Assembly (NCBI RefSeq): GCF_900188205.1
Contig: NZ_FZOH01000006.1
Location: 186,001-250,000, forward strand
Length of the DNA: 64,000 nucleotides
DNA from: Geodermatophilus saharensis
GTDB taxonomy: Bacteria > Actinomycetota > Actinomycetes > Mycobacteriales > Geodermatophilaceae
Reading direction: 5' to 3'
Shown piece by piece: positions 1 through 16,221 of this stretch (position 1 is its first letter; every line of letters begins with the position of its first letter). The notes beneath the pieces were generated by a model. The model searched no databases. It was not told where the DNA came from and saw only the letters and a program-made list of their open reading frames with translations. The translations under genes and the position numbers were made by a program.

Positions 1-59
1 CTGATCGGGCCGCGGACGACGAGGGGTGCCCGGCCGACCGTGGCGCCCCCGGACAGCAC

Positions 60-95
60 AGCGGCCCGGCACCCCCTGAGGGGTACCGGGCCGCT
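60..95 (-). terminator. Stem-loop behind the binding-lipoprotein gene
   Basis: A perfect 10-bp stem (60-69 with 86-95) continues, after one mismatch, into a 5-bp inner stem (71-75 with 80-84) with a 4-nt loop. It begins about 50 nt past the stop codon of the minus-strand gene ending at 147. It could end or dampen transcription before downstream genes lying outside the window. There is no T-tract, as is common in high-GC actinobacteria. Confidence 0.7.
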
Positions 96-146
96 GCCGG
101 GTGGTGCGAGGTCAGCGCTGTGCTCTCACAGCGCTCCCAGGGGCGC

Positions 147-1490
147 TCAGCGCTGCGGGCCGATGCCCTGGTCGTTGAGGCCCTGCAGGATCCGGGAGGA
201 CTCCTCGAAGCCGATCACGATGATGGCGTCGGGGTTGAAGTCGACCATCTGCTGGACCTCGGCGTCGAAGTTCGCCGCCTGCGGGTCGTAGGTGATGGAG
301 ACGATGTCGTCCTCGGACAGACCGGCGCTGACCAGGTTGTTCTTGGTGTTCTCCGCGAGCCCGGTGCCGTAGGGGTCGTTGAGGGCCAGGATCCCCACGG
401 TGTTGTTGCCGTCGGCGATGATCAGGTCGGCGAGGGCGCGGGCCTGCAGCGTGTCCGGCGGGGCGGTGCGGAAGTACAGCCCGTTGTCGTTGTAGGTGGT
501 GAACTGGTCGGACGTGTTCGCCGGCGAGAACTGCAGGACACCGGCGCCGGTGATGGCGTCGATGACCGTGAGGCTCACGCCCGAGGACGCCGCACCGATG
601 ATCGCGTTGACGCCCGACTGCAGCAGCCGGTCGACGGTCTGGGTGGCGGTGTCGGTCGAGGCGTCACCGGAGTCACCCTCGACGAGCTGCACCGGCTGGC
701 CCAGGACGCCGCCCGCGGCGTTGATGTCGTTGAGCGCGAGCTTGGCGCCGGCGACCTCCGGCGGGCCGAGGAAGGCCAGGTTGCCGGTGAGCGGCAGCAG
801 CGTGCCGATGACCAGCGGGCCACCGGTCGTGCCCGCCGGGGCGTACGCCGGGCCCTCGTTGGTGGTGGCGTTGGCCTCGTCGCCGGCGATGACGAACTCG
901 GTGGCGTCGCTGTCGAGCTGGTTGTCCTCGCCGAACTGCAGCAGGCCGAAGCTCGCCGCGGCGGGCTCACCGGCGTCGGTGAAGGCCAGCGGGCCGGAGA
1001 TGCCGTCGTAGTCGACGTTGCCGCCGGCGTTGATGATGTCCAGGCAGGCCTGGAAGTCCTCGCACTTGTCGCCGCCGGCGGTGATGCCGTTGACGTACTC
1101 CTTGAAGACGTTGGCGTCGTTGGTCCCCGCCGCCTGGGCGGCCAGCGCGGTGACGATCACCGCGTCGTAGGTCTCACCCGCGTAGTTGTAGTCCTGCAGG
1201 TTCGGGTCGACCTCGAGCAGCCGGTCGGTGAAGTCCGAGCCCAGCTCGGTGAGGGGCGTGGTGCCCTTCATGCCGGCGAGCGCGCCCTGCTCGGTGAAGT
1301 CCTCACCGAGGGCGTTGCCCATGTTGCCGTCGGTGCCGTAGATGTTGACCTGCTTCTCGCCGCTCGCGGCGTCGCCGCCACCGCCGGAGCCGCCGCCGGA
1401 GTCCCCGTCGTCCCCGCCACCGCAGGCGGTGAGGGCGATCAGGGCGGCGGACGTGACGGCGATGCTGCGGGCGTAGGTACGCGTGCGCAT
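147..1490 (-). CDS. Branched-chain amino-acid ABC transporter binding lipoprotein, circularly permuted
   Basis: Extracytoplasmic binding protein of the LivK/Peripla_BP_6 type, 447 aa, expected to deliver branched-chain amino acids or related ligands to a Liv-type ABC importer. A signal peptide ends in lipobox LTAC with acylated Cys23, followed by a Gly/Asp/Ser linker (24-45). The halves are in the reverse of the family order. Residues 46-205 (starting KQVNIYGTDGN, including YDAVIVTALAA and GPLAFTDAGE) correspond to the usual C-terminal half. Residues 225-447 (starting PLVIGTLLPLTG, including LNDINAAGGVLGQPV) correspond to the usual N-terminal half. Residues 206-224 form a new linker. The protein ends at GIGPQR, where family members would run on into the KQV segment. 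The ATG has a GGGAG ribosome site 7 nt upstream. livHMGF would lie left of the window. Confidence 0.88.
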   Translation of the reverse strand: MRTRTYARSIAVTSAALIALTACGGGDDGDSGGGSGGGGDAASGEKQVNIYGTDGNMGNALGEDFTEQGALAGMKGTTPLTELGSDFTDRLLEVDPNLQDYNYAGETYDAVIVTALAAQAAGTNDANVFKEYVNGITAGGDKCEDFQACLDIINAGGNVDYDGISGPLAFTDAGEPAAASFGLLQFGEDNQLDSDATEFVIAGDEANATTNEGPAYAPAGTTGGPLVIGTLLPLTGNLAFLGPPEVAGAKLALNDINAAGGVLGQPVQLVEGDSGDASTDTATQTVDRLLQSGVNAIIGAASSGVSLTVIDAITGAGVLQFSPANTSDQFTTYNDNGLYFRTAPPDTLQARALADLIIADGNNTVGILALNDPYGTGLAENTKNNLVSAGLSEDDIVSITYDPQAANFDAEVQQMVDFNPDAIIVIGFEESSRILQGLNDQGIGPQR

Positions 1491-1654: not shown

Positions 1655-2257
1655 TCAGGAGGGTGCACCCTCCGCGGGGGTCGCGTCGCCGGCCAGGATG
1701 CGCTCGGCCAGCGCCTTCATCGACGTCCGCTCGTTCATGGCCGTGCGCTGGATGGACCGGAACGCCTCGGCCTCGGTGATCCCCTGCTCGGCCATCAGCC
1801 GGCCCTTGGCCTTCTCGACGACCTTGCGGGCCTCGAGCCGCTCCTCGAGCGTGCGGACCTCGCCGTCGAGGGCGGAGATCTCGGTGAACCGGGCGCGCGC
1901 CACCTCGATCGCCGGCACCAGGTCGTTCTTGGAGAACGGCTTGACCAGGTAGGCCATGGCGCCGGCGTCACGGGCCCGCTCGACCAGCTCGCGCTGGCTG
2001 AAGGCGGTCAGCACGATGACCGGCGCGATCCGGTCCGAGGCGATCTGCTCGGCGGCGGCGAGGCCGTCGAGCACGGGCATCTGGATGTCGAGGATGACCA
2101 GGTCGGGGCCCAGCTCGCGGGCTCGGTCGACGGCGGTCTGCCCGTCGCCGGCCTCGGCGACGACGACGTAGCCCTCCTCCTCCAGCATCTCCTTGAGGTC
2201 GAGGCGGATGAGGGCCTCGTCCTCGGCGATGAGGACCCGGGTCGGCTCGCTGCTCAC
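1655..2257 (-). CDS. pdtaR: ANTAR-domain response regulator, PdtaR-like
   Basis: Response regulator of 200 aa. The receiver domain (about 7-118) has acidic residues at E12/D13, phospho-acceptor Asp57 in LVILDIQMP and the conserved Lys in LVKPF. The C-terminal ANTAR RNA-binding domain (about 130-190) contains KVVEKAKGRLMAEQGITEAEA. By family knowledge such proteins bind tandem stem-loops in nascent RNA and prevent termination when phosphorylated by a PdtaS-type kinase; no kinase gene is in the window. The neighbourhood of Liv binding protein and pyk is typical for actinobacterial PdtaR. The GTG start at 2257 lies 8 nt after a TAGGCT box, so the transcript may be leaderless. Confidence 0.93.
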   Translation of the reverse strand: MSSEPTRVLIAEDEALIRLDLKEMLEEEGYVVVAEAGDGQTAVDRARELGPDLVILDIQMPVLDGLAAAEQIASDRIAPVIVLTAFSQRELVERARDAGAMAYLVKPFSKNDLVPAIEVARARFTEISALDGEVRTLEERLEARKVVEKAKGRLMAEQGITEAEAFRSIQRTAMNERTSMKALAERILAGDATPAEGAPS

Positions 2258-2337: not shown

Positions 2338-2414
2338 GCCCCCGTACCCCAATCGGCAGAGGGAGCGGATTCAAAACCCGCGCAGTGTGCGTTCGAGTCG
2401 CACCGGGGGCACCA
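2338..2414 (+). tRNA. tRNA-Leu (anticodon CAA), short variable loop
   Basis: A 77-nt cloverleaf with encoded CCA. Acceptor GCCCCCG (2338-2344) pairs perfectly with 2404-2410; discriminator A2411 is followed by CCA 2412-2414. The T arm (2387-2403) is perfect with loop TTCGAGT. The anticodon arm is 2365-2381 with CAA at 2372-2374, which reads UUG Leu codons. The variable loop has only 5 nt (2382-2386), whereas bacterial tRNA-Leu normally has a long class-II variable arm. The D stem has three C-G pairs, and the anticodon stem closes with an A-C mismatch (2369/2377). It could be a genuine unusual leucine tRNA or one with altered identity. Confidence 0.8.
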
Positions 2415-2625: not shown

Positions 2626-4317
2626 GTGAGCGAGCCCGTCCCCCACATGACCCCCGAGCAGTTCCGGCAGCACGGTCACGAGGTGGTCGACTGGATCGCC
2701 GACTACTGGACGCGGGTGCAGTCCTTCCCCGTCCGCTCGCGGGTGGCGCCGGGCGACGTCCGCGCCGCGCTGCCGCCGTCGGCCCCCGAGCAGGGCGAGC
2801 CGTTCTCCGCGCTCCTGGCCGACCTCGATGCCGTCGTCCTCCCCGGGGTCACCCACTGGCAGCACCCGGGCTTCCTCGCCTACTTCCCGGCCAACACCTC
2901 CGGCCCTTCCGTCCTCGGCGACCTGCTGTCGGCCGGCCTCGGCGTGCAGGGCATGTCCTGGGTGACCAGCCCGGCGGCCACCGAGCTCGAGCAGCACGTC
3001 CTGGACTGGCTGGTCGACCTCCTCGGCCTGCCTACGTCCTTCCGCTCGACCGGCAGCGGCGGCGGCGTGGTGCAGGACTCCAGCTCCGGTGCCAACCTGG
3101 TCGCCCTCCTGGCCGCGCTGCACCGCGCGAGCGGCGGCGGCACGGTGCGCCACGGCGTCGACCCGGACCGCGCGACGGTGTACGTGAGCGCCGAGACGCA
3201 CTCCTCGATGGAGAAGGCGGTGCGCATCGCGGGGCTGGGTACCGACGCCATCCGCGTCGTCGAGGTCGACGGCGACCTCGCGATGCGCCCGGCGGCGCTC
3301 AGGGCCCGGCTGGAGCGGGACACCGCCCGCGGGTACACGCCGGTGCTGGTCTGCGCGACGGTCGGGACGACGTCGACCACCGCGGTCGACCCGCTGGCCG
3401 AGCTCGGGCCGATCTGCCGCGACGCCGGCGTCTGGCTGCACGTGGACGCCGCCTACGCCGGGGTCAGCGCCGTGGCGCCCGAGCTGCGGCCGCTGCAGGC
3501 CGGGGTCGAGTGGGCCGACAGCTACACCACCGACGCGCACAAGTGGCTGCTGACCGGCTTCGACGCCACGCTGTTCTGGGTCGCCGACCGCGCCGCCCTC
3601 ACCGGCGCGCTGGCGATCCTCCCCGAGTACCTCCGCAACGCCGCCACCGAGGCCGGCGCGGTGGTCGACTACCGCGACTGGCAGATCGAGCTCGGCCGCC
3701 GGTTCCGGGCGCTCAAGCTGTGGGCGGTGCTGCGCTGGTACGGCGCGGAGGGGCTGCGCGCGCACGTGCGCTCCGGCGTCGCCCTCGCGCAGGAGCTGGC
3801 CGGCTGGGCGGAGGCCGACGACCGCTTCGACGTCGTCGTCCCGCACCCGCTGTCGCTGGTGTGCCTGCGGCCCCGCTGGCCCGCCGACGTCGACGCCGAC
3901 GTCGCCACCATGACCCTGCTCGAGCGGCTCAACGACGGCGGCGAGGTGTTCCTGACCCACACCACCGTGCGCGGGCAGGTGGTCCTGCGGGTGGCCATCG
4001 GCGCGCCGGCGACGACCCGCGCGCACGTGGAGCGGGCGTGGGCGCTGCTGTGCGAGGGCCACGACTGGCTGGCCGACGACTTCGCCGAGGCCGCCGCCGA
4101 GCGCGCCCGCGCCGAGGCCGAGCGCAGGGCCGAGGCCGAGCGCAGGGCCGAGGCCGAGCGCAGGGCCGAGGCCGAGCGCAGGGCCGAGGCCGAGCGCGCC
4201 GCGGAGACCGAGCGCGCCGCCGAGGCGCGCGAGCCCGCGACGACGGACACCACCGAGGACGCCGAGGAGGGCGCGCAGCCGGTGGAGGCCGCCGTCACTC
4301 CCCCAGTGACCGGATGA
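2626..4317 (+). CDS. PLP-dependent aromatic L-amino-acid decarboxylase-like protein
   Basis: Group II pyridoxal-phosphate decarboxylase, 563 aa, cytosolic. It probably converts an aromatic amino acid (Tyr, Trp, Phe or DOPA) to its amine; the substrate cannot be read from sequence. The N-terminal PGDVRAALP and GVTHWQHPGFLAYFPAN segments are typical of AADC enzymes. The PLP-stacking His is in ETHSSMEKA, the aspartate in VDAAYAG, and the Schiff-base Lys306 in TDAHKWLL. The catalytic part ends near residue 490. Beyond it is an atypical charged tail with repeated AEAERR units (about 496-525), likely a single alpha-helix or coiled coil, then an acidic end. Its 3' end overlaps the convergent thioesterase gene by 23 bp. 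Confidence 0.9.
   Translation: MSEPVPHMTPEQFRQHGHEVVDWIADYWTRVQSFPVRSRVAPGDVRAALPPSAPEQGEPFSALLADLDAVVLPGVTHWQHPGFLAYFPANTSGPSVLGDLLSAGLGVQGMSWVTSPAATELEQHVLDWLVDLLGLPTSFRSTGSGGGVVQDSSSGANLVALLAALHRASGGGTVRHGVDPDRATVYVSAETHSSMEKAVRIAGLGTDAIRVVEVDGDLAMRPAALRARLERDTARGYTPVLVCATVGTTSTTAVDPLAELGPICRDAGVWLHVDAAYAGVSAVAPELRPLQAGVEWADSYTTDAHKWLLTGFDATLFWVADRAALTGALAILPEYLRNAATEAGAVVDYRDWQIELGRRFRALKLWAVLRWYGAEGLRAHVRSGVALAQELAGWAEADDRFDVVVPHPLSLVCLRPRWPADVDADVATMTLLERLNDGGEVFLTHTTVRGQVVLRVAIGAPATTRAHVERAWALLCEGHDWLADDFAEAAAERARAEAERRAEAERRAEAERRAEAERRAEAERAAETERAAEAREPATTDTTEDAEEGAQPVEAAVTPPVTG
4111..4200 (+). repeat. 18-bp tandem repeat in the decarboxylase tail
   Basis: Four identical consecutive copies of GCCGAGGCCGAGCGCAGG (4111-4182) and a fifth, diverged copy (4183-4200), each encoding AEAERR. 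Identity at the DNA level points to recent expansion or slippage. Confidence 0.9.
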
Positions 4318-11100: not shown

Positions 11101-12815
11101 ACCAGCTCCTCGCGGATGGCGTCCAGCGGCGGGTTGGTCACCTGCGCGAACAGCTGCCCGAAGTAGTCGTAGAGCTGCCGGGAGCGGTCCGACAGCGCGG
11201 CGATCGGGGTGTCGGTTCCCATCGAGCCGATCGGCTCGGCCCCGGTGGAGGCCATCGGGGTGAGCAGGACCCGCAGCTCCTCCTCGGTGTACCCGAACAG
11301 CTGCTGGCGGCGCACCACCGACTCGTGGCTGGGGCGCGCGCGCCGCCGCTCGGGCAGCGAGGGCAGGTGCACCAGGCCGGCGTGCAGCCAGTCCTCGTAG
11401 GGGTGCTCGGCGGCCAGGGCGCCCTTGACCTCCTCGTCGGAGACGATCCGCCCCGAGGAGGTGTCGACCAGGAACATCCGGCCCGGCTGCAGCCGGCCCT
11501 TGGCGACGACGTCGCCGGCGGGGATGTCGAGCACGCCGGTCTCGCTGGCCAGGACGACGAGGTCGTCCTTCGTGCGCAGCCAGCGGCCCGGGCGCAGGCC
11601 GTTGCGGTCGAGGACGGCGCCGATGAGCGTGCCGTCGGTGAAGGCCACGCAGGCCGGCCCGTCCCAGGGCTCCATGATCGAGGAGTGGAACCGGTAGAAC
11701 GCCCGCCGGGCCGGGTCCATCTCGTCGTGGTTCTCCCACGCCTCCGGGATCATCATCAGCACCGCGTGCGGCAGCGAGCGGCCCGACAGGTGCAGCAGCT
11801 CGAGCACCTCGTCGAAGGTGGCCGAGTCGCTGAAGTCGCTGGCGGTGACCGGGAAGACGCGCTCCAGGCCGAGCTCGCGCGCCGGGCCGGCGGGGCCGTC
11901 GAACAGGTCGGTCTCGAGCTGGGCCTCGCGGGCCCGCATCCGGTTGCGGTTGCCCTTGATGGTGTTGATCTCGCCGTTGTGGGCGATGAACCGGAACGGG
12001 TGGGCCAGCGGCCAGCTGGGGAAGGTGTTGGTGGAGAACCGGCTGTGCACCAGCGCGATCGCCGACTCGTAGCGCTCGTCGCGCAGGTCGGGGAAGAACG
12101 CGGGCAGCTGGTCGGTGGTGAGCATGCCCTTGTAGGTCAGCGTCCGCGACGACAGCGAGACCACGTACAGCGAGCTGCCGGCGTCGCGGGCCTCCCGCTC
12201 GGCGCGCTTGCGCAGCACGAAGGAGCGCCGCTCGAGCCGGGTGACGCCGTTGACCGCGCGCGGGCCGCCGAACGCGGCGGCGTCGGCGCGGGCGCCCATG
12301 GTCTCGGCGACGAACAGCTGCGCGAAGTGCGGCATGACCGCGCGGGCGGTGGGACCGAGGTCGGCGCCGTCGGGGTCGACCGGGACGTCGCGCCAGCCGA
12401 GGACGGTCAGCCCCTCCTCGGCGGCGATCCGCGCGACGTCGGCCTGGCGGGCGGCGCGCTCGCCGGCGTCGAGGGGCAGGAAGGCGATGCCGACGGCGTA
12501 CTCGCCCAGCGGCGGCAGGTCGAAGTCGACGGCGGCCCGCAGCAGCGCGTCGGGCACCTGGGTCAGGATGCCGGCGCCGTCGCCGGAGTTGGGCTCGGCG
12601 CCGGCCGCGCCGCGGTGGTCGAGGTTGTGCAGCGCGGTGAGGCCGGCGGCCACGATCGCGCGCGAGCGGCGGCCCCGGGCGTCGGCCACGAACGCGACAC
12701 CGCAGGCGTCGGAGTCGTTCGCCGGGTCGTAGAGGCCGGCGGTCGGCGGCGTGGCCGAGAAGGGCACGGCCGGGCCGGTGGTGGTGCGGGTGGCGGGGGT
12801 GCGGGACCCGGACAT
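8151..12815 (-). CDS. gltB: Glutamate synthase large subunit
   Basis: Alpha subunit of GOGAT, 1554 aa. It hydrolyses glutamine and transfers ammonia to 2-oxoglutarate, giving glutamate. Order: short propeptide, mature N-terminal nucleophile Cys38 in SDACGVAF (class II amidotransferase), central domain, FMN-binding synthase domain ([27 protein letters not shown]), 3Fe-4S cysteines in [12 protein letters not shown], and the C-terminal GXGXG beta-helix ([19 protein letters not shown]). The ATG at 12815 was chosen because it gives a normal short propeptide. A 13-bp hairpin lies 22 nt upstream in the leader. Confidence 0.96.
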
Positions 12816-12836
12816 GGTCACTCCCGTCGTCGGCTG

Positions 12837-12865
12837 CCGCGCCGTCCTCGCGGAGGACGGCGCGG
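12837..12865 (-). promoter_or_regulatory. 13-bp stem-loop in the gltB leader
   Basis: A perfect 13-bp stem (12837-12849 with 12853-12865) with a 3-nt GCG loop. It lies between lgt (ending 13134) and gltB (starting 12815), both minus-strand. It could terminate lgt or trp read-through, or act as an attenuator of gltBD. The remainder of the 318-bp gap (12816-13133) shows no ORF with a recognisable product and no riboswitch I know. Confidence 0.5.
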
Positions 12866-13133
12866 GAGCACGGCCGGTGGTCAGGGGGGCGGTGCGACGG
12901 AGCCGCGGGGAGCGGCCCGGTCTGCGGTGAGCCGGCGTCCGGCGGACACGGTGTGCCCGGACCGGCTGAGCTCGCGGCCCCGCGGGTGGTGCCACGGGGT
13001 CGTCGTCCGCGGGGCAGCACTGGCCCGGTTCCGACACGTGCGACGACCCAGGATCGCTGGGGAGTCTGCCCAGGAGGGTACACAGCCGCAACGCGCCGTC
13101 CACGCGTCCCGACGGTGTCCGCGGCGCGTCCGC

Positions 13134-14075
13134 TCAGGGCGTCCCGGGTGTGTCGGAGGAGCGGTCCGCCGACCGCCGGACGTCCGGTGCGGCGGGGTCG
13201 CCGGCCACCTCGCCGTCGGGGTCCCCGGGGGTGTCCCCGGCGGTGTCGTCGGTGGGGTGCACCCGGTCGACGACCTCCCGCGGGCGGCCGCGCTGCCACA
13301 CCAGGTAGGCGACGGCGAGCAGGCCGACCACGATGCAGGTGAACACGTTGAGCCGGACGCCGAGGATCCGGTTGGCGTCGTCGATGCGCAGCAGCTCGAT
13401 CCACAGCCGGCCGGCGCAGTACAGCGCGACGTAGAGGGCGAACGCCCGGCCGTGGGAGAGGCGGAACCGGCGGTCGGCCCACACGACGACGGCGGCCGCG
13501 GCGAGGTTCCACAGCAGCTCGTAGAGGAACGTCGGGTGGAACGTGGCGAAGGCCTCGTAGCCGGCGGGGCGGTGCGCGGCGTCGATCTCCAGCGCCCACG
13601 GCAGCGTCGTCGGCCGGCCGAAGAGCTCCTGGTTGAACCAGTTGCCGAGGCGGCCGATGGCCTGGGCGACCAGCAGGCCGGGGGCGATGGCGTCGGCGAA
13701 GGCCGGCAGCGGGATGCCGCGGCGGCGGCAGGCGATCCACGCGCCGACGCCACCGAGGGCGATCGCACCCCAGATGCCGAGGCCGCCCTCCCAGATCGCG
13801 AAGGCCCGCAGCGGGTCGCCGCCCTCGCCGAAGTAGGGCTGCGGCGTGGTGACGACGTGGTAGAGCCGGCCGCCGAGGATGCCGAAGGGCACCGCCCAGA
13901 CGGCGATGTCGAGGACCTCACCGGGCCGCCCGCCGCGGGCCACCCAGCGCCGCTCGGCGATCCAGCAGGCGGCCACGATGCCGGCGATGATGCACAGCGC
14001 GTAGGCCCGCAGCGGGAACGGCCCGAGGTACCAGGTGCCCTGCGCGGGGCTGGGGATCGCCGCGAGCGTGCTCAC
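13134..14075 (-). CDS. lgt: Phosphatidylglycerol-prolipoprotein diacylglyceryl transferase
   Basis: Integral membrane enzyme, 313 aa, that adds diacylglycerol to the lipobox Cys of prolipoproteins, the first step of lipoprotein maturation. About seven membrane segments. The Lgt signature is GRLGNWFNQELFGRP, with upstream GGRLYHVVT and downstream HPTFLYELLWN. The C-terminus carries a hydrophilic Asp/Pro/Thr-rich cytoplasmic tail (about 265-313), common in actinobacterial Lgt. The GTG at 14075 overlaps the trpA stop as GTGA. The lipoproteins ending at 147 and 55543 are predicted substrates. Confidence 0.95.
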   Translation of the reverse strand: MSTLAAIPSPAQGTWYLGPFPLRAYALCIIAGIVAACWIAERRWVARGGRPGEVLDIAVWAVPFGILGGRLYHVVTTPQPYFGEGGDPLRAFAIWEGGLGIWGAIALGGVGAWIACRRRGIPLPAFADAIAPGLLVAQAIGRLGNWFNQELFGRPTTLPWALEIDAAHRPAGYEAFATFHPTFLYELLWNLAAAAVVVWADRRFRLSHGRAFALYVALYCAGRLWIELLRIDDANRILGVRLNVFTCIVVGLLAVAYLVWQRGRPREVVDRVHPTDDTAGDTPGDPDGEVAGDPAAPDVRRSADRSSDTPGTP

Positions 14076-14871
14076 GAGGGCACGCCCGCACCGCGGCGCA
14101 CGCCCTCGGCGAGCTCGGCCGACAGCGCCCGCACGCCCTCGGGGCCACGGCCGTCGAGCACCCGCCGGACGTAGGCGGACCCGACGATGACGCCGTCGGC
14201 GAAACCGGCCACCTCCGCGGCCTGGTCGCCGGTGGAGACGCCGAGGCCGACGCACACCGGCAGCTCGCCGGCGACGGCGCGGGTGCGGGTGACCAGCCGC
14301 TCGGCCGCGTCGCTCACCGTGGCCCGGGCGCCGGTGACGCCCATCGTCGAGGCGGCGTAGACGAAGCCGCGGCAGGCGGCGACGGTGGCGGCCAGGCGGG
14401 CGTCGGTGGACGACGGCGCGACGAGGAAGACCCGGTCGAGGCCGGTGCGCTCGGTGGCGGCCAGCCACGGGGCGGCCTCGTCGGGGATCAGGTCGGGGGT
14501 GATCGCGCCCGCGCCCCCGGCGGCGGCCAGGTCGTCGGCGAACCGGTCGACGCCGTAGTGCTCGATCGGGTTCCAGTAGCTCATCACCACCGGCACCGCC
14601 CCGGCGTCGGCGACCGCGCGGACCGCGCCGAACACGTCGCGCAGGCCCACGCCGGCCCGGACGGCGACGTCCATCGCCTCCTGGATGACCGGGCCCTCCA
14701 TGCCGGGGTCGGAGTACGGGACGCCGATCTCCACCGCGTCGGCGCCGCCCTCGACCAGGGCGACCATGGCCTCGATCGAGCGGGGCACGTCGGGGTACCC
14801 GACCGGCAGGTAGCCGAGCAGCGCGGCCCGCCCCTCGGCCCGCGCCTGCGCGATCCGGTCCTGCAGCGCGC

Positions 14872-14875
<4 letters not shown>
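14072..14875 (-). CDS. trpA: Tryptophan synthase alpha subunit
   Basis: Cleaves indole-3-glycerol phosphate to indole and glyceraldehyde-3-phosphate and channels indole to TrpB. A TIM barrel of 267 aa. Visible motifs are GYLPVGYPD (family usually GYLTAGYP), the catalytic Glu/Asp region [28 protein letters not shown] and the phosphate-binding CVGLGVS plus [11 protein letters not shown]. The GTG at 14875 overlaps the trpB stop by four bases, and its own stop overlaps lgt in the same way. Confidence 0.96.

Positions 14876-16221
<1,346 letters not shown>

Follow-up and report, generated by a model that had tools for sequence, protein, structure and literature searches.

A Liv-type substrate-binding lipoprotein with exchanged halves in Geodermatophilus saharensis, and signs that such circular permutations arose more than once

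The window (the whole 64,000-nucleotide stretch of the Geodermatophilus saharensis contig) opens, on the minus strand, with a gene for a substrate-binding protein (SBP) of the branched-chain type in which the two halves of the binding domain stand in exchanged order. Below, half A is the one that usually comes first and half B the one that usually comes second. The features of this region are:

59..96, no strand: strong inverted repeat (arms 59-75 and 80-96) in the gap between the SBP gene and livF, which converge; terminator-like but with no T run
147..1490, minus: circularly permuted branched-chain-type substrate-binding lipoprotein gene, 447 amino acids (open reading frame, Pfam, relatives)
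150..818, minus: half A, residues 225-447, in last place (Pfam PF13458 positions 2-217; fold match to 3ipc)
819..875, minus: linker of 19 amino acids, residues 206-224, that connects the former C- and N-termini (translation; predicted ordered)
876..1355, minus: half B, residues 46-205, in first place (half order by BLAST; Pfam after exchange)
1356..1421, minus: low-complexity Gly/Asp-rich spacer, residues 24-45 (translation; low pLDDT)
1422..1490, minus: lipoprotein signal peptide and lipobox LTAC, residues 1-23 (translation read by eye)
1655..2257, minus: ANTAR response regulator directly upstream of the SBP gene, part of a conserved locus (Pfam Response_reg and ANTAR; synteny)
2338..2414: tRNA-Leu, upstream of the SBP gene

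The coding sequence runs from an ATG at 1490 down to 147, and directly before the ATG stands GGGAG, which reads like a ribosome site. In the translation, the lipobox with Cys23 (read by eye) marks a lipoprotein; the segment that begins with KQVNIYG at residue 46 comes first, PLVIGTLL follows the linker from residue 225, and GIGPQR, from residue 442, is the new C-terminus. A first-pass annotation, made from the letters alone, had pointed to the same lipobox, ribosome site, 19-residue linker and segment order and had read the gene as a circularly permuted Liv-type binding lipoprotein. The sequence bears out the landmarks, and the half order and the Pfam matches bear out the permutation.

The best Pfam families for the protein are Peripla_BP_6 and ANF_receptor. 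In the native order, residues 226-445 match positions 2-217 of the 343-position PF13458 profile with 125 bits (the cut-off is 31.7), which places the protein in the Liv-type (HAAT) Peripla_BP_6 family; its half order, B before A, is not that of the family. Aligning the halves to the family, as had been proposed, gave a clear result: once they are exchanged in silico, there is one PF13458 match with 137 bits that nearly fills the profile (positions 2-328). Because this match is continuous, the segment in first place must be the half B that had seemed to be absent. Judged from its sequence, the gene product is a Liv-type binding lipoprotein whose chain is circularly permuted. The only DNA repeats found in positions 1-1700 of the window are imperfect and GC-rich, with 65-88% identity.

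The terminator hairpin that had been claimed downstream of the gene stood up as a hairpin (fold score z of -7.4 for positions 40-150, minus strand) but not as a consensus terminator, as the scan found none with a T run at this gene. A scan for sigma-70 promoters found nothing.

Upstream of the SBP gene, beyond the ANTAR gene and the tRNA-Leu, lies a gene for pyruvate kinase (pyk). The window also encodes, at 2626-4317, a PLP-dependent decarboxylase. Close to the C-terminus of this enzyme is a tandem repeat of the AEAERR type, and its best NCBIfam model is diaminobutyrate decarboxylase, with a score below the cut-off. On the other side of the SBP gene, on the same contig but outside the window, livH, livM, livG, and livF (11371-15621 of locus L084, plus strand) run towards it. 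Between them they carry BPD_transp_2 twice and ABC_tran twice, the content of a Liv partner set, and these neighbours support the Liv assignment made from the SBP sequence. LivH (L084 11371-12702) has about 160 residues ahead of its permease domain, with a match to CarboxypepD_reg. A special LivH domain was considered as the reason for the permutation and rejected, since this N-terminal extension occurs in permuted and normal systems alike.

The gene order pyk, ANTAR, SBP, livFGMH, polA recurs across lineages, allowing for loci that are cut short, lack a gene, or have one gene in a different place or direction. In some lineages the SBP at this locus is permuted (for example, L208 from Geodermatophilus and L090 and L205 from Nocardioidaceae), and in others it has the normal order (for example, L088 and L093 from family f8 and L268 from Sinosporangium). 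Because the shared locus carries one form or the other, the permuted SBP gene appears to be the orthologue of the normal one, permuted where it stood. Elsewhere, the available flanks contain no liv genes: this holds for the permuted proteins of Micromonosporaceae and for second permuted copies in Klenkia-like genomes (L264, L265, L267, L269, L270, and L272-L275; L087 and L094; L095, L096, and L253).

The source genome (4.89 Mb in 20 contigs) is one of 92 among 112 Geodermatophilaceae genomes with a single full-length match to the permuted SBP, which we counted as permuted order; the order itself was read in the loci that were fetched, including 49 reading frames of this family (f1) that read as permuted. 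The other 91 matches are 63-94% identical to the source protein, and several come from single-contig assemblies. Of the remaining 20 genomes, three have partial matches that are cut by contig ends (G066, G067, and G073) and 17 have weak matches only. Three genomes (G085, G088, and G104) encode an additional, distant normal-order protein with 42-45% identity in half A (the order was read in two of them). We found no close second copy in the source genome, whose other five matches are weak.

The first-pass annotation had called circular permutants of this fold rare, had suggested a search for the same order in related genomes, and had held that an order that is standard in close relatives would speak against a permutation. 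The search found it in the 91 other genomes. The gene is no rare, individual oddity: the permuted order is standard in Geodermatophilaceae and is present in several other actinobacterial lineages. Taken literally, the order named as counter-evidence is the one found, but this is still a permutation, because the orthologues of other lineages at the shared locus and the Pfam family have the normal order. Among these normal-order actinobacterial orthologues (such as L065, L066, and L259), L065 and L066, from f8 and at the same locus, share 65-67% identity with the source SBP in half A and 47-50% in half B.

Structure prediction, which had also been suggested, gave a confident model. For the mature permuted SBP (with an alignment of 64 permuted sequences), AlphaFold2 reached a pLDDT of 91.6 and a pTM of 0.89. 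The linker region is predicted to be ordered (means of 94-97 for 10-residue blocks over mature residues 181-210), and in the spacer, at mature residues 11-20, the pLDDT is under 50. A normal-order relative from Sinosporangium (L259; 9 sequences) was modelled with a pLDDT of 85.1. When each model is aligned to 3ipc in sequence order, the permuted one aligns at residues 202-423 only, which is half A (218 aligned, Z of 18.0), whereas the normal-order one aligns at residues 11-378 (337 aligned, Z of 37.4). A half-length alignment for the permuted protein and a full one for the normal protein is the pattern that a permutation predicts.

We looked for permuted forms in wider samples. A sample of 200 genomes of the order yielded two further families, f13 with 1 genome and f16 with 23; f16 was taken to be Micromonosporaceae by sequence likeness to named loci, and the family names for f41, f68, and f81 were also inferred. 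A sample of 394 genomes of the class added f39 (4 genomes), f49 (2), and f41 (1). Within f41, an antisense query followed by reading of the genes found the permuted form in 13 of 197 genomes; a fourteenth candidate, G1117, was rejected because it read as normal order. Six more genomes, with a different cut, came from 396 genomes of the phylum.

Among named genomes, 70 of the best 80 loci were permuted and 9 were normal, and the last had just half A, a split that is not a frequency, as these loci were ranked towards the permuted query. The names within these 80 include Geodermatophilus, Blastococcus, Modestobacter, Klenkia, Micromonospora, Plantactinospora, Nocardioides, Marmoricola, two Nonomuraea, two Streptomyces, Salsipaludibacter, Ilumatobacteraceae, and other Acidimicrobiia; f13, f39, and f49 are represented there by MAGs only. 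The Nonomuraea and Streptomyces genes (L204, L218, L220, and L233) are very similar, lie beside liv genes, nest inside Nocardioidaceae, and are separated from each other by very short branches, and they are best read as transfers.

The permuted proteins are cut at one of two adjacent sites. At site 1, which the source SBP has, the C-terminus lies at or just after GIGP and the N-terminus before the VYGTDGN strand. At site 2, found in Acidimicrobiia and Salsipaludibacter, the C-terminus lies 20-24 residues past site 1, after DGNMGNALGENF, and the N-terminus before GMKGT. When the sites are placed by eye, with the alignment, on the normal-order model, the site-1 cut comes in a loop flanked by helix 216-225 and strand 234-238, which fits the earlier suggestion that the new ends lie in a loop, and the site-2 cut comes slightly before strand 258-262. 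Both cuts would be in lobe 2, a placement that rests on homology with Liv structures and on their topology. The loci fetched total 151 with site 1, 13 with site 2, and 123 normal (genes fetched twice are counted twice).

None of the 164 permuted frames encodes the cut strand twice, once at each end of the protein. One locus (L105) was flagged for this and set aside, as the first copy of the strand precedes the lipoprotein signal, right where the open frame begins. Nor did any of 295 loci hold an A-B-A-B fusion or intermediate. Tandem SBP genes occur at just two of these loci (L188 and L189), in both cases in normal order; such pairs are plausible raw material for permutation by duplication and deletion. 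The spacer from the lipobox to the domain did not differ clearly in length between permuted and normal proteins, as judged with a rough pattern: the medians are 25 amino acids for site 1 (151 proteins), 30 for site 2 (11 of 13), and 29 for normal order (115 of 123).

To count origins, we put the permuted proteins in normal order, aligned them with the others, and built trees from chosen subsets: 129 of 190 SBP frames, 71 of these 129, a further set of 120 rows, and, for LivF, 105 of the 213 loci that have it. All of the trees are unrooted, so that gain versus loss rests on the order found in outgroups. In the 71-row SBP tree (with bootstrap and SH-aLRT support), the permuted rows stand in five places, with 5 changes of order: f1, f13, and f16 with normal-order f8 among them; f39 and f49; f41, beside normal-order f41; f81 and f122 (site 2); and f68 (site 2). 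A single site-1 group or a single site-2 group appeared in 0% of 200 bootstrap trees. Quick trees gave 5 changes for the 129 rows and 6 for the 120 rows. The LivF tree has similar lineage groups, and many of its forks are unresolved; site 1 takes 6 changes on it, and site 2 takes 2. From these placements, permutation of this kind seems to have had about five independent origins, about three at site 1 and about two at site 2. A gain of the permutation is the simplest direction of change, because more distant homologues and the Pfam family have the normal order.

The details of this count are less firm than its outline. Whether f39 and f49 stem from one event is answered differently by the SBP tree and the LivF tree. 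The normal-order f8 proteins (L065 and L066) fall, without resolution, among the site-1 proteins of f1, f13, and f16, and a reversal or extra gains are therefore required there. The site-2 group of f81 and f122 adjoins the f1/f13/f16/f8 group in the combined and half-B trees, so it may reflect one permutation whose cut shifted later.

The main alternative is a single ancient permutation that was spread by horizontal transfer, or that persisted with repeated losses and reversals to the normal order. Site 1 does lie at the same place across its lineages, and one site-2 group is next to the main site-1 group. Transfer does occur, as the Streptomyces and Nonomuraea copies inside Nocardioidaceae attest, and the Micromonosporaceae copies, with no liv genes in the available flanks, may have been transferred as well. 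The AU test argues otherwise: for the SBP, one clade of all permuted proteins is rejected (at a cost of 249 log units, p of 1.1e-71), and so is one site-1 clade (225 log units, p of 1.8e-29), with a modest rejection of one site-2 clade (18.8 log units, p of 0.012). For LivF, one site-1 clade is rejected as well (p of 0.00024). Furthermore, there are two different cut sites, permuted proteins are scattered in the trees of both halves, and many permuted genes are neighbours of the liv genes of their own lineage, frequently at the pyk-ANTAR-SBP-liv-polA locus. We consider a single origin improbable.

Recombination within gene families is common in bacteria, and this general fact is what favours the idea that normal and permuted genes exchanged halves and that a single origin merely looks polyphyletic. 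In that case, the permuted proteins ought to group together in at least one of the halves. Separate trees of half A (6 changes) and half B (7 changes, from an alignment of only 125 columns) each gave a single site-1 or site-2 group in none of 200 bootstrap trees, so both halves argue against the exchange, and we regard it as very unlikely. A local assembly artefact in the source genome, for which just the caution of the first-pass annotation can be cited, is close to impossible and was rejected, given the conservation of the order across Geodermatophilaceae, single-contig assemblies included.

Repeated origin is thus the reading that we carry forward. Very probably, the gene encodes the permuted, lipid-anchored SBP of a Liv importer that retains its fold and cleft, would be anchored at lobe 2, and represents one of about five independent origins. 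The simplest route would be that the gene duplicated in frame and then shed its first A half and its last B half. The old termini would then be joined by the linker, and new termini would open, by homology, in a helix-to-strand loop of lobe 2, most likely with the fold and the ligand cleft retained. The lipid anchor would enter the chain ahead of half B (lobe 2, by homology), where a normal-order protein has it ahead of half A (the start of lobe 1). A changed hinge or transporter docking, raised by the first-pass annotation, is a possible consequence. In how it handles its ligand, the protein is most likely an ordinary Liv binding lipoprotein: it would capture a small, amino-acid-like ligand and pass it to the neighbouring LivHMGF.

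As to the ligand, a Thr and a Glu in 3ipc are taken to be amino-acid contacts; the positions that align with them are invariant in the 64 permuted sequences, and this fits an amino acid. The best scores of LivH are to urea-permease models (below the cut-off), so the ligand may instead be urea or an amide. The NCBIfam LivJ/K model gives the permuted SBP 66 of 477 bits, far below its cut-off.

If one short stretch of lobe 2 has indeed been opened some five times, the reason is a matter for speculation. One tentative and rather doubtful explanation is selection for an anchor moved away from lobe 1, that is, convergent re-tethering by permutation; for example, an anchor at lobe 2 might place the open cleft more favourably above LivHM.

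To our knowledge, a natural circular permutation has mostly been inferred to be one ancient event that sets distant relatives apart. In this case, orthologues with and without the permutation occupy the same locus with their transporter partners, have two adjacent cut sites, and are spread over many sequenced strains. Such a setting allows direct tests of how permutations originate, whether they are neutral, and how the position of the lipid anchor affects import, and an SBP with swapped halves becomes a natural test of how and why proteins are re-threaded. It also carries a warning, as profile searches see only half of such proteins.

In a literature search whose coverage lacked most subscription journals, no published case of a permuted Liv protein turned up, nor any binding-protein gene said to have been permuted repeatedly, and the one natural precedent found was TpMglB-2 (Tp0684) of Treponema. 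According to the excerpted description, TpMglB-2 belongs to the "Type Ic" ligand-binding proteins: these type I, lipid-anchored ABC binding proteins are circularly permuted in nature and occur in several organisms, and the crystal structure retains the bilobed fold (PMC4990184). The same excerpts assign it to a sugar-binding family, describe the first three strands of its N lobe as moved to the C-terminus, and record its authors' speculation on membrane tethering (PMC4990184). By that account, the two share a circularly permuted type I lipoprotein, with the fold of the source SBP being a predicted one, and they are set apart by the cut, which lies at about position 217 of 343 of PF13458 in the source SBP and not after the third strand of the N lobe; repeated origin does not appear in the excerpted description (PMC4990184). 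Permutation in this fold class is already known from TpMglB-2, and the recurrence is the surprising part. Compared with the known Liv/HAAT proteins (Peripla_BP_6; 3ipc, 4n0q, and 3td9), the source SBP has the same sequence family, the fold of half A, and livHMGF partners, and it differs from them in the order of its halves and in the positions of its termini and, by our reading, of its lipid anchor.
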